Positions 12,798-40,512 of a stretch of DNA of 51,934 bases are shown here, one piece after another (positions within the stretch are counted from its first letter, which is position 1; every line of letters starts with the position of its first letter). A program made the translations under genes and the position numbers. Origin of the DNA: Bacteroidaceae bacterium (lineage in GTDB: Bacteria > Bacteroidota > Bacteroidia > Bacteroidales > Bacteroidaceae); NCBI GenBank assembly GCA_017548075.1, contig JAFYNL010000029.1, forward strand, positions 1 to 51,934. Reading direction: 5' to 3'. Below the pieces are notes generated by a model. The model made no database searches and had not been told where the DNA came from. It was given only the letters and a program-made list of their open reading frames with translations.

Positions 12798-12901
12798 AAC
12801 AACCCCAGTTACGTTGGCAAACTTAACGTGTTACGATTGCAAACTTAACGTGTTATGATTGCAAAGTTAACGTGTTACGTTTGGCATCTTAACCTGTTAT
12901 G
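12798..12901. repeat. 22-base-unit palindromic array, copy A
   Basis: A left cap AACAACCCCAGTTA (12798-12811) is followed by four exact 22-base units: 12814-12835, 12836-12857, 12858-12879 and 12880-12901. Each unit carries TTGCAA or a variant, then TTAACGTGTTACG or a variant. The last unit is degenerate and runs into six T residues. It lies in the divergent gap between the AraC-type gene and the aminotransferase gene, 20 bases before the aminotransferase promoter. The final full unit creates TACGTTTG at 12877-12884, a match to the -7 consensus on the plus strand. Confidence 0.92.
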
Positions 12902-12920
12902 TTTTTTCTTGCTAAAAGGT

Positions 12921-12951
12921 TTGTGTCTTCTCTCAAAACTTCGTACCTTTG
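12921..12951 (+). promoter_or_regulatory. Promoter of the aminotransferase-permease pair
   Basis: TTG (12921-12923) lies 20 bases before TACCTTTG (12944-12951), a near-ideal Bacteroidetes promoter. Transcription would start near 12958, about 20 bases before the ATG. Confidence 0.75.
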
Positions 12952-12977
12952 CACGCGAAATTCGAAAATAAGGAATT

Positions 12978-14174
12978 ATGCCACAAATATCCGTTCGAGG
13001 CGTTGAGATGCCGGAGTCGCCTATCCGCAAGTTGGCTCCGCTTGCTTACGCCGCTAAAGACAGAGGAATTCACGTATATCACCTGAACATCGGTCAGCCC
13101 GACCTTCCTACACCTAAAGCGGCCATCGATGCCATCAAGAATATCGACCGTAACATCTTGGAATACAGCCCCAGTCAGGGTTATCTGAGTTATCGCAAAA
13201 AGTTGGTCGGCTACTATGGAAAGTACAATATCAACCTCACTCCCGACGATATCATCATCACAAGTGGCGGTAGCGAGGCCGTACTTTTCTCGTTCCTCGC
13301 TTGCCTGAATCCTGGTGACGAGATCATCGTGCCTGAGCCTGCCTATGCCAACTATATGGCATTCGCAATCTCTGCAGGAGCCGTGATTCGCACTATAACG
13401 ACCACCATCGAGGAAGGCTTCTCGTTGCCGAAGGTCGAGAAGTTCGAGGAACTCATCAACGAAAAGACTCGCGCCATCCTGATCTGCAACCCAAACAATC
13501 CGACGGGCTACCTCTATACTCGTCGCGAAATGAATCAGATTCGCGATCTCGTCAAGAAATACGACCTCTATCTCTTTAGTGATGAGGTTTACAGAGAGTT
13601 CATCTATACGGGAAGTCCCTACATTAGTGCCTGCCATTTGGAGGGTATCGAGAACAATGTGGTGCTCATCGATAGCGTGAGCAAAAGGTATAGTGAGTGC
13701 GGCATCCGTATCGGAGCGCTCATCACGAAGAATAAAGAGGTTCGCAAGGCCGTGATGAAGTTCTGCCAGGCACGTCTCAGCCCTCCTCTCATCGGACAGA
13801 TCGCAGCCGAAGCCAGTTTGGATGAACCCGAAGAATACGGCAGAGAAGTCTACGACGAATATGTTGAAAGACGTAAGTGTCTCATCGATGGATTGAACAG
13901 AATACCAGGTGTGTATAGTCCCATTCCGATGGGTGCGTTCTATACTGTCGCGAAGCTTCCCGTAGATGATGCAGAGAAGTTCTGTGCTTGGTGCTTGAGC
14001 GAGTTCAACTACGAAGGGGAGACTGTGATGCTGGCTCCTGCCGCGGGTTTCTACACGACTCCCGGCATCGGCAAGAACGAAGTGCGTCTGGCCTACGTCC
14101 TCAAGAAAGAAGACCTCGTAAGAGCACTCTTCATCCTCAGAAAAGCCTTGGAAGCTTATCCTGGAAAGGTGTAA
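12978..14174 (+). CDS. PLP-dependent class I/II aminotransferase
   Basis: The 398-residue protein shows the fold-type I hallmarks. NPNNPTG at 171-177 and Asp202 (SDEVY) contact the cofactor ring. Lys236 (SVSKRYS) forms the Schiff base, and Arg244 (CGIRIG) lies near the phosphate. Such enzymes move an amino group from aspartate or another amino acid to a 2-oxo acid. It resembles aspartate aminotransferases of the Bacteroidetes, but it is distinct from the aminotransferase inside the aromatic operon at 25457. The next gene begins one base after its stop, so the permease is probably co-transcribed. The functional link between the two is unclear. Confidence 0.88.
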   Translation: MPQISVRGVEMPESPIRKLAPLAYAAKDRGIHVYHLNIGQPDLPTPKAAIDAIKNIDRNILEYSPSQGYLSYRKKLVGYYGKYNINLTPDDIIITSGGSEAVLFSFLACLNPGDEIIVPEPAYANYMAFAISAGAVIRTITTTIEEGFSLPKVEKFEELINEKTRAILICNPNNPTGYLYTRREMNQIRDLVKKYDLYLFSDEVYREFIYTGSPYISACHLEGIENNVVLIDSVSKRYSECGIRIGALITKNKEVRKAVMKFCQARLSPPLIGQIAAEASLDEPEEYGREVYDEYVERRKCLIDGLNRIPGVYSPIPMGAFYTVAKLPVDDAEKFCAWCLSEFNYEGETVMLAPAAGFYTTPGIGKNEVRLAYVLKKEDLVRALFILRKALEAYPGKV

Positions 14175-14175
14175 A

Positions 14176-15417
14176 ATGTTTACTTGGTTTGTAGCTAAAC
14201 GACTCTTCGCTCAAAGCGGAAGCAGCGGACGAGCCTCGCGTCTTGCCACAGGAATTGCAACTGTGGGAGTCGCTATCGGCTTAGCCGTGATGTTGGTTAG
14301 CGTTTCTATCGTGCTCGGCTTCCAGAAGGAAGTTCAGGACAAAGTGTTGGGCTTCGGCGCTCACATCAAGGTGCTCAACTACAAGAGCTTAGGCCAGCAA
14401 GAGTTCAGTCCGATTGTTATCGACGATTCTGTCACTTCGCGACTCTCTGCAATCCCTAATGTGGCTTCCGTTGCACGCTATTGCATCAAGCCAGGAATGC
14501 TGAAGACTGACGCCAATTTCCGAGGAATCGCGATTCAAGGAGTTGGGCAAGACTACGACCAAAGCTTCATCAGCAGCCACTTAGTAAAGGGCGAAATGCC
14601 TGAGTTCACAGATTCCGTCAGTTCGGGCAAGCTGGTTATTTCGCAGGCAATGGCTCGCGAAATGCAAGTCGATGTTGGCGAAACCATCTATGCTTACTTC
14701 TTTGAACAAACGGTTCGGGCAAGGAAGTTTACCGTCGCAGGCATTTACCAGACCAATCTTACCGACTTCGACAAGAACTTTGCCTATACCGATCTCAACA
14801 CTATTCATCATCTTTTGGGTTGGGATTCCCAGCAATATACAGGAGCGGAAATCAGGTTGAAGGATTTCGAGAAACTCGATGAGACTTTGATGAATGTGGT
14901 AAACGAGGTCAATCACAAGCAAGATGCTTATGGCAACTACTATTCCAGCATGAGCATCAAAATGGAACATCCGCAGATTTTTGCTTGGTTGCAACTCCTC
15001 GATATGGACATTGTGGTCATCCTCATCCTGATGATTTGCGTCTCCATCTTTACCGCGGTAAGCGGACTACTTATCATCATTCTGGAACGCACCAATTTCA
15101 TCGGCATCATGAAGGCTTTGGGGGCACGCAACAAGCAAGTTCGTCACCTCTTCCTCAACTATGCTCTTCTGATTATTGTGCGAGGAATCATACTCGGAAA
15201 CCTGTTGGCTTTCGCCCTTATCTTCTTGCAGAAACAGTTCGGAATCGTTACTCTCGACCCCGAAGTCTACTACGTTGAAGCCGTTCCTGTAATGGTGAAT
15301 TGGTGGTGGGTGCTCGCTATCGACCTCGGAACGCTTGTCCTTTGTGGTTTGGCTATGATTGTTCCGAGCCTTGTGGTCTCAAATATCACGCCTGCCAAGA
15401 GCATTCGCTTCGAATAG
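14176..15417 (+). CDS. FtsX/LolC-E-type ABC transporter permease
   Basis: The 413-residue protein has the MacB/FtsX permease layout. There is one membrane segment near residues 25-50, a periplasmic domain of about 220 residues, and three further segments near 270-305, 325-350 and 375-405. The N-terminus (WFVAKRLF) and the arrangement match the lipoprotein-releasing permeases LolC/LolE. No ATPase gene is adjacent, so a LolD-like partner must be elsewhere. The start lies one base after the aminotransferase stop. Its last 39 bases overlap the end of prmA on the opposite strand. Confidence 0.82.
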   Translation: MFTWFVAKRLFAQSGSSGRASRLATGIATVGVAIGLAVMLVSVSIVLGFQKEVQDKVLGFGAHIKVLNYKSLGQQEFSPIVIDDSVTSRLSAIPNVASVARYCIKPGMLKTDANFRGIAIQGVGQDYDQSFISSHLVKGEMPEFTDSVSSGKLVISQAMAREMQVDVGETIYAYFFEQTVRARKFTVAGIYQTNLTDFDKNFAYTDLNTIHHLLGWDSQQYTGAEIRLKDFEKLDETLMNVVNEVNHKQDAYGNYYSSMSIKMEHPQIFAWLQLLDMDIVVILILMICVSIFTAVSGLLIIILERTNFIGIMKALGARNKQVRHLFLNYALLIIVRGIILGNLLAFALIFLQKQFGIVTLDPEVYYVEAVPVMVNWWWVLAIDLGTLVLCGLAMIVPSLVVSNITPAKSIRFE

Positions 15418-39965: not shown

Positions 39966-40005
39966 GATTTTTCCTTTCTACTTTATTAAGATCTAACGTT
40001 ACGAA

Positions 40006-40278
40006 TTACGAAAGAATAGCCACAACGTCGCTCTGACGCATGATAAGATACTTCTTTCCCTCAATCTCTACCTCAGTTCCAGCGTACTTTCCATAGAGGA
40101 CTTCATCGCCTTGCTTGAGGACCATCTCTTCGTCCTTGGTGCCATTACCAACGGCAACAATAGTGCCCTTCAAGGGCTTCTCCTTAGCGGTATCGGGGAT
40201 GATGATGCCGCCAACTGTCTTTGTCTCTGCAGGAGCGGGCTCGATGAGCACGCGGTCTGCTAATGGTTTTACGTTCAT
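40006..40278 (-). CDS. groS: Co-chaperonin GroES
   Basis: The 90-residue protein contains the GroES beta-barrel, with [12 protein letters not shown] at the start and the mobile loop [17 protein letters not shown] (18-34) that contacts GroEL. It caps the GroEL ring during folding. It is the first gene of the groES-groEL operon. No CIRCE element (TTAGCACTC-N9-GAGTGCTAA) was found, but another inverted repeat lies upstream at 40326-40355. Confidence 0.96.
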
Positions 40279-40325
40279 TGTCTTATTTAGTTAATTAATT
40301 AAACATTCCACATTCTTATATACAA

Positions 40326-40355
40326 AGTGCGTGCCAAACTGATTCGACACGCACT
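40326..40355. promoter_or_regulatory. Inverted repeat upstream of groES
   Basis: AGTGCGTG (40326-40333) and CACGCACT (40348-40355) are perfect inverse arms separated by 14 bases. It lies 48 bases before the groES ATG, a place suited to an operator, or it may serve as the terminator of the YfhO-type gene (T-rich sequence follows on the minus strand). The choice is open. Confidence 0.5.
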
Positions 40356-40406
40356 ATTTTCTGTCACGACTGACATAATTTCATAGAGGAACTCGTTCCT
40401 GTCAAA

Positions 40407-40512
40407 AACGACCTGCAGTTAAGTTTCAAACGTAACACGTTAACTTTGCAATCATAACACGTTAAAATCGCCAACGTAACACGTTAAGTTTGGCAACTTA
40501 ACTGGGGTTGTT
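40407..40512. repeat. 22-base-unit palindromic array, copy E
   Basis: Read from the minus strand the copy begins with a perfect cap AACAACCCCAGTTA (40499-40512). Units with TTAACGTGTTACG or TTAACGTGTTATG follow, and a closing cap ends near 40407-40421. TACGTTTG lies on the minus strand at 40427-40434, directed at groES. The first 15 bases double as the last four codons (Asn-Asn-Pro-Ser) and the stop of the YfhO-type gene. Confidence 0.92.

Follow-up and report, generated by a model that had tools for sequence, protein, structure and literature searches.

The 51,934-nt window considered here (the whole stretch of contig JAFYNL010000029.1, from a Bacteroidaceae bacterium) contains five short elements in or at the edges of gene gaps, each an array of 22-bp near-palindromic units. 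This sequence family is one species' version of a class of arrays in which the period, and in many cases the gene gap occupied, is retained between species while the letters change.

Arrays in the Window

The five copies and their settings are as follows.

Copy A, 12798..12901, + strand: cap AACAACCCCAGTTA followed by four units (core 12808-12893), in the divergent gap between the genes at 11972-12697 (-) and 13008-14174 (+).
Copy B, 16264..16362, - strand: about four units (core 16264-16349) with linkers that are mostly AC, in the divergent gap between PrmA (-) and the gene at 16489 (+).
Copy C, 24271..24376, + strand: cap, four units (core 24281-24366) and a near-inverse cap, in a divergent gap upstream of the prephenate dehydratase gene.
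Copy D, 31781..31923, + strand: six units (core 31784-31913), the right end containing the inverse-cap-like TAACTGGGGTTATT, in a tandem gap before a PorP/SprF gene.
Copy E, 40407..40512, - strand: four units (core 40417-40502) with an exact inverse cap at 40499-40512, in the gap between groES and a YfhO-family gene.

Across these copies the lattice consists of 20-bp near-palindromes of the form GTTANSWTTGCWAWSNTAAC with 2-bp linkers between them, and in the first catalogue of elements the linkers were mostly AC or GT (68 and 57 of 169, respectively). An earlier sequence-only reading had recognized the five elements at these positions, their period of 22 and a TTGCAA-like dyad lying 11 bp from an AAC-GT/AC-GTT dyad, all of which stand. 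Its statement that every unit holds TTGCAA was too strict; exact TTGCAA occurs only seven times in the five copies, its place being taken elsewhere by TTGGCA, TTGCCA, TCGCCA, and others. The second dyad is real, but the recurrence of symmetric centers every 11 bases is not an independent observation, since tandem repetition of a near-palindrome generates a second dyad half a period on and hence the 11-bp alternation. Likewise, the cap attributed to copies A, C and E begins A and C exactly, whereas copy E starts with AACGACCTGCAGTT, and of the inverse caps attributed to C and E only that of E is exact, copy C ending in the near-inverse TAACTAAGGTTGTT. The elements had been described as noncoding, which needs qualification at copy E; it overlaps the end of the open reading frame (ORF) at 40498-43056 (-), the final codons and stop of which lie inside its cap. 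As to density, which had been thought high, the two ends of the window are indeed empty of elements, but five copies is an ordinary number for a genome sample that holds about one element per 7-8 kb.

Copy Number and Unit Anatomy

The genome to which the window belongs (G000; 2.66 Mb in 66 contigs, 88% complete) was sampled as the window plus 400 kb of its other contigs, 452 kb in all. Allowing at most two mismatches, the palindromic unit matched at 640 sites in G000 and at one when the pattern was read backwards. Chaining of matches by motif gave 82 chains, 21 of them inside called genes and these mostly single-unit chance matches; 59 elements were recognized in the 452-kb sample, 58 outside called genes, which extrapolates to about 350 genome-wide. 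A motif-free scan, which measures self-identity at a given lag, found 55 clusters at lag 22 in the same sample; at the other lags from 10 to 60 (44 excluded) the mean was 0.14 and no lag exceeded three. These lag-22 arrays are of one type, 94% of pairs exceeding a similarity of 0.35, and a motif-free scan of the sample at relaxed threshold revealed no second array type. The sequence-only reading had turned on whether further copies exist and whether the repeat belongs to a named family; there are many more copies, and no named family emerged from the searches made.

The period is exact. The step between neighboring units was 22 bp in 159 of 166 cases and 44 bp in a further four, and the 58 regular elements sampled comprise 3 to 7 units each. 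Neighboring units of an element agree at only 68% of positions, and variable positions draw on restricted alphabets (G at position 5 in 2/196; A or T at position 7 in 194/196). The dyads are a property of the consensus: whole-element palindromy in the 58 own elements was 0.599, against 0.603 with columns shuffled, and pairing within copies of the own type was not significantly above between-copy pairing in any size class. The arms of own copies are thus without covariation, and hairpins are not what is kept; symmetry of this kind resembles the sites of a dimeric protein and not a selected hairpin. The best unit dyads averaged 7.24 of 11 pairs, compared with 5.95 in shuffles.

Among relatives, the own-type unit was most frequent in G094 (172 sites), G075 (117), G005 (67), G035 (59), and G011 (50), and in most of 81 genomes it had only a few sites, like the backward control. 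An exact 20-mer variant of the unit was found in 18 stretches of a named genome collection, in records labeled Bacteroidales, Bacteroidaceae, Prevotellaceae, or simply bacterium; Yak_Omasum and Roe_deer_Omasum appear among their source names, and RUG in genome names is a rumen label. The backward control pattern itself gave 30 matches in G098, 16 in G103 and 9 in G068, a hint of another repeat family in those genomes.

A Constant Period with Changing Letters

The motif-free scan was extended to 13 near relatives and 9 distant members of the genus, genes being called by simple ORF scoring and not taken from annotation (called coding fraction 0.88 in the own sample and 0.68-0.90 in the relatives). 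Over lags 14-50, own intergenic clusters numbered 54 at lag 22, 20 at lag 44 and zero at every other lag. With lag 44 set aside, the near relatives yielded 105 intergenic clusters at lag 22, the next most frequent being lag 21 with 10, and the distant members yielded 17, followed by three at lag 21. Twenty genomes of other families (247,892 bases, including some short contigs and poor gene calls, with a coding fraction of 0.38) gave zero lag-22 clusters, whether inside genes or outside them. Of the 22 sampled relatives, 19 had one or more lag-22 arrays, although the lone array counted for G073 is a simple repeat of 11 bases and doubtful; the sampled stretches of G068, G091, and G104 had none. 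Placement is intergenic almost throughout, with 178 of 180 arrays lying outside called genes (six of them at stretch edges).

What changes from genome to genome is the sequence of the unit. The groES/yfhO gap, orthologous to that of copy E, holds 22-bp arrays with other letters in relatives: a CACTAGTG-type in G094, which has the TTGC half in common with the own type, CTGCAG/CCRTGG-type arrays in G005, G034, G035, and G088, a CGCACGCG-type in G075 and G093, a GGTTAACC-type in G011 and G023, and a CTCGTGAG-type in G012; G096 has no array in this gap. The gap of copy B adds further unit types in relatives, including arrays built on CAATTG/CATG. Over the 81 genomes this dialect was counted 129 times in G019, 117 in G034, 77 in G093, and 44 in G026, with none in the own genome or G094 and no more than three for its backward control. 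In the copy B gap (for example L220 7647-7729 and L219 6536-6630) it comprises three units between GTTYRTT...AAYRAAC-like ends, and an array at C119 of G035 has at least four units; some copies in G019 have the look of perfect inverted repeats, in which they differ from the own type. Of 125 arrays in the relatives, 69 contain CACG/CGTG in phase, which makes it the commonest 4-mer (median 4-mer 13.5).

Orthologous Slots and Concerted Change

Gaps that hold an array in one genome tend to hold one in its near relatives. Over syntenic gaps in near relatives, cells that correspond to an own array were filled in 32 of 49 cases, and cells that correspond to an own gap without an array in 16 of 285, two G088 cells of the 285 being double-counted through overlapping stretches; gaps longer than 1,500 bp were set aside and slot cells share ancestry, so that the Fisher P of this comparison overstates the evidence. 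In distant genus members the corresponding counts were 0 of 4 and 0 of 40. Taken singly, the slots of copies B and E were filled in 9 of 11 near relatives each, B with other unit sequences and E with several unlike ones, slot C in three of four, slot D in the one that was testable, and the C8 gap between 76712 and 76838 in four of four. Slot A held an array in one of eight testable near relatives (G094), the other seven being below threshold. All six testable slots of G094 carried an array.

The letters within these slots have diverged together. Orthologous arrays had a similarity of 0.17, against 0.51 for own arrays among themselves and 0.09 for shuffled letters, and in 32 of 32 pairs the orthologous arrays were less alike than the own arrays, which indicates a change common to many loci. 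Within-genome similarity was 0.34 in G094, 0.23 in G075, and 0.13 in G093. Concerted divergence is clear for G000 and G094, and the other genomes are mixed in this respect. Newer types also lie inside apparent remnants of older ones, as in slot B of G075, where TACATGTA units are flanked by CACGTTAAG pieces. One gap of G093 (L234, ~7145-7331) holds a pair of unlike 22-bp arrays set end to end, possibly a replacement in progress.

Placement and Spacing along the Chromosome

The median distance of own elements was 7 bp to a neighboring gene's 3' end (n = 65) and 134 bp to a 5' end (n = 47). The direction of their units is independent of the genes (concordant/discordant 13/13 in tandem, 10/8 in convergent and 5/5 in divergent gaps). 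Among own gaps of at least 100 bp, an element was present in 18 of 20 convergent, 24 of 69 tandem, and 12 of 33 divergent ones, counts in which the element itself widens its gap. Near relatives had no convergent excess (convergent 15/47, tandem 57/171, divergent 18/81).

Proximity to 3' ends and occupancy of own convergent gaps are what would be expected of RNA-level elements, either bidirectional terminators or hairpins at mRNA 3' ends. Folding is more stable than in shuffled sequence for copy C (z = -3.05) and for both strands of copy E (z = -3.99 and -3.79), and the CAATTG/CATG copies of G019 that resemble perfect inverted repeats would suit such a role. Copy B folds no better than shuffles (z = -0.33), however, and copy A only weakly so (z = -1.62); within-copy compensation is not significant in any size class, copies A-C sit between divergent genes where there is no 3' end, and unit orientation ignores transcription. 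Ordinary-looking hairpin terminators occur elsewhere in relatives, for example between the 37247 gene and groEL, and no Rfam match reached the gathering score in the window. An RNA-level role is therefore considered very improbable.

Along the chromosome the elements are regularly spaced. The 58 chains of at least two units outside genes, together with one lag-22 array in a called ORF (C37, ~36.8 kb), define 54 intervals with a mean of 7.17 kb, a minimum of 2.1 kb and a coefficient of variation (CV) of 0.41, or 0.39 when the C37 array is omitted. Null CVs were 0.88 for gene junctions, 0.85 for transcription-unit boundaries and 0.83 for junctions weighted by type and gap size, and the observed CV was reached in 0 of 5,000 draws of each null. 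No own interval was shorter than 2 kb, compared with 11.2, 9.4, and 8.7 in the three nulls, respectively. In the relatives, represented by stretches of at most 20 kb that were partly chosen around orthologues of element-bearing genes, 2 of 60 intervals fell below 2 kb against 11.5-14.6 expected. Where relatives' neighbors were of unlike sequence, one of 38 intervals did so (a subset without a null of its own); that such neighbors keep apart suggests that arrays with unlike letters behave as equivalents.

Even spacing of hundreds of sites, species dialects with a shared short core (CACG), and the occurrence of two dialects in one genome recall the DNA uptake sequences (DUS) of Neisseriaceae. 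The arrays might by analogy be transformation labels, self-DNA marks for a receptor that are spread by biased uptake and recombination and that change as dialects together with the receptor. DUS, however, are overrepresented 10-mers commonly inside genes (PMC3630211), whereas the present elements are 22-bp arrays of several units with 178 of 180 outside genes. An uptake label is accordingly an unlikely explanation, and both uptake labels and RNA elements are less likely than protein binding or mobility.

Protein Docking or a Mobile Repeat as Possible Explanations

Of the two explanations offered by the sequence-only reading, helix-phased binding arrays and a miniature mobile repeat, both remain in the lead. 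The one favored here, tentatively and at somewhat short of even chances, is that the elements are docking arrays for a putative DNA-binding protein, probably a dimer, that would act in chromosome architecture and whose motif would turn over between species. Each element would be a short array of helix-phased sites for this sequence-specific protein, which may load on successive 22-bp units of about two helical turns each and in this way assemble a nucleoprotein anchor between genes, in G000 preferably beside gene 3' ends. Such anchors would rarely be less than 2 kb, and typically 4-9 kb, apart. Their spacing along the chromosome suggests a role in chromosome architecture, as loop or supercoil-domain boundaries, over regulation of the next gene. 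The recognized motif would drift and the arrays of a genome would follow in concert, such that species come to differ in dialect as the period, the spacing and many slots persist. Judged from sequence, binding is favored by the rigid step from unit to unit (22 or 44 in 163 of 166 cases), by the restricted alphabets at variable positions, by consensus-level symmetry without copy-level covariation, by gene-independent orientation, and by regular chromosomal spacing; the protein's binding, its dimeric state, and its architectural role are all three inferred.

A number of observations weigh against such a protein. No binding protein was found, and ParB_N occurred once per genome in 12 of 12 genomes tested. 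Several unit types coexist in G093 and G075, and one protein could hardly read all of them by sequence; in G005, the arrays resemble each other less (0.13) than their G000 orthologue (0.20). Adjacent units are 0.676 alike compared with 0.646 across elements, which fits slippage as well. Taken one at a time, unit dyads reached significance in no more than 46 of 125 arrays of relatives, compared with 39 of 55 own ones, and many G094 units are asymmetric, which counts against a strict homodimer. The flanks of CACG/CGTG are complementary at 2.41 of 4 positions (chance 1.0) over many different flank sequences, which speaks for binding, but this figure pools both strands, which can inflate it, and counts related arrays repeatedly. 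Slot A is empty in seven of eight near relatives and distant members fill none of four slot cells.

A mobile, satellite-like repeat ranks close behind protein binding and is given roughly a one-in-three chance. Small non-autonomous elements would have spread into gene gaps with no host function needed; recombination or gene conversion would homogenize each genome, giving dialects with an inherited 22-bp period, and cis-acting insertion immunity would keep elements apart. Lineage-specific presence fits this account, slot A being filled in the own genome and G094 and empty in the seven other near relatives, and G035 carrying an array in the C8 gap between 62559 and 64434. So do the newer arrays within apparent older remnants (slot B of G075 and G026), the cap-like inverted ends, concerted evolution itself, and the excess in own convergent gaps (18 of 20), as if promoter-near insertions had been purged. 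For the CAATTG/CATG dialect there is also a candidate enzyme: strong Y1_Tnp hits were obtained in four genomes (G026, G034, G088, and G012), all among the 9 of 22 that carry the dialect in number (Fisher P 0.017, a comparison chosen post hoc), four of the nine carriers having no Y1_Tnp hit and one a weak hit. A RAYT link is thus possible for this dialect. PF01797 exceeded its cut-off in 7 of the 22 genomes.

On the other side, no Y1_Tnp was found in G000, G094, G075, G005, G011, or G023, all of them array-bearing though incomplete genomes, and no 22-bp array lies within 1.5 kb of the Y1_Tnp loci L247 and L248. The flanks of empty sites were too diverged for a target-site duplication to be read, those at slot A being unalignable by eye, and PF01797 was the sole transposase family searched. 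Near relatives lack the convergent excess, immunity would need to act between unlike sequences, and the near-absence of unit-spacing changes and the restricted alphabets look constrained. The Y1_Tnp pattern and the missing convergent excess in relatives together shift a little weight from the protein, and from the fuller proposal given below, to the mobile repeat.

Other candidates were tried and rejected. The promoter motif of Bacteroides is TAnnTTTG, and the 14 bp to the previous TTTG does not fit the spacing of a Bacteroides-type promoter. A hairpin or terminator as a general explanation was rejected on folding, lack of compensation, orientation, and palindromy at motif expectation. RAYT-driven REP was set aside for the own type on zero PF01797 (Y1_Tnp) in G000, as was a second ParB/Noc-like binder on the single ParB_N in each of the 12 genomes. 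The exact unit occurs in 22 viral stretches as single units only, with no array in any, and comparison of copy C with 72,556 plasmid records and 50,697 phage records gave no match; a phage or plasmid origin was rejected on these results.

Returning to the docking arrays, the fullest form of that proposal, in which 22-bp docking arrays would mark the chromosomes of a genus of uncultured gut Bacteroidales every few kilobases, with selection acting on period, spacing and many positions as the letters turn over in concert, probably in the service of chromosome architecture, is held more loosely, at about a third. To our knowledge, dispersed bacterial repeats have so far been recognized by their letters. 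What persists here is letter-free, namely the 22-bp period, the intergenic slot and the even chromosomal spacing, and this points to a chromosome-wide DNA-binding or repeat system. If a protein reads the arrays, its specificity must change species by species along with hundreds of sites. Whether a binding protein and its sites across a genome evolve in concert could then be tested in bacteria, a chromosome-organizing system in Bacteroidales could be revealed, and the pair would be a bacterial counterpart of rapidly evolving satellites and their binding proteins. If the arrays are selfish instead, they would constitute a bacterial satellite with a distance rule, likewise apparently new.

Other Features of the Sampled Sequence

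Three features lie outside the arrays. Upstream of the prephenate dehydratase gene, a short Phe/Tyr-rich ORF at 24465-24524 (+), MTQKSNLYFGFYYYFYFSK, is followed by an inverted repeat and a T run, and looks like a transcription-attenuation leader peptide; similar leaders are present in G011, G012, and G023. At 38323-38342 of C37 in G000 (L060 ~18323) stands GTTTCACGTGAAACAT, which matches the canonical ParB site. The 46880-46909 gap and its orthologues contain AT-rich low-complexity repeats resembling TTTACTATTTACG, which account for some lag-22 signal in G026 and G093 and are probably unrelated.

Comparison with Known Systems

REP/BIME elements with their RAYT enzymes, as in Escherichia coli, resemble the present arrays in being dispersed, intergenic, palindromic repeats of high copy number; IHF and gyrase are among the proteins that bind BIMEs (PMC2817692). 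The arrays differ from them in their 22-bp units in register, in the absence of copy-level hairpin covariation in the own type, in the unlike unit sequences found at one slot, and in their even spacing; moreover, G000 and several other array-bearing genomes have no Y1_Tnp.

Plasmid iterons and parC-type centromere arrays are helix-phased arrays of binding sites with periods of about 11 or 22 bp, and there is one per replicon, whereas here hundreds of arrays are spaced along the chromosome. CRISPR arrays are set apart by their unique spacers, the present units abutting with a 2-bp linker.

Within the Bacteroidales, the BrickBuilt miniature inverted-repeat transposable element of Porphyromonas gingivalis and P. 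gulae is likewise intergenic, with tandem short units and inverted ends. It has a 23-nt unit in 19 copies, a long leader and tail, and GAGACC-type ends (PMC4596501); the own unit steps by 22 in 159 of 166 cases and its caps differ from that type. According to the same source, tandem repeats of 41, 23, and 22 nt were at one time reported from P. gingivalis W83 without positions (PMC4596501). The DUS of Neisseriaceae form eight dialects around a three-nucleotide common core, with one genome carrying two (PMC3630211). They are comparable in being genome-wide, conserved within a species and variant between species around a short core, but they are single short words, often in genes, and not 22-bp arrays.

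A literature search, with subscription papers mostly outside its reach, produced no description of such arrays, and passages of PMC5771137 contain nothing on 22-bp repeats. The own type fits no named family, REP/BIME, BrickBuilt, CRISPR, and Rfam each failing a tested feature. With the 22-nt repeats of W83 left out of the comparison, what we regard as new is the class itself, arrays defined by their period, place, and spacing, in which the letters are replaceable.

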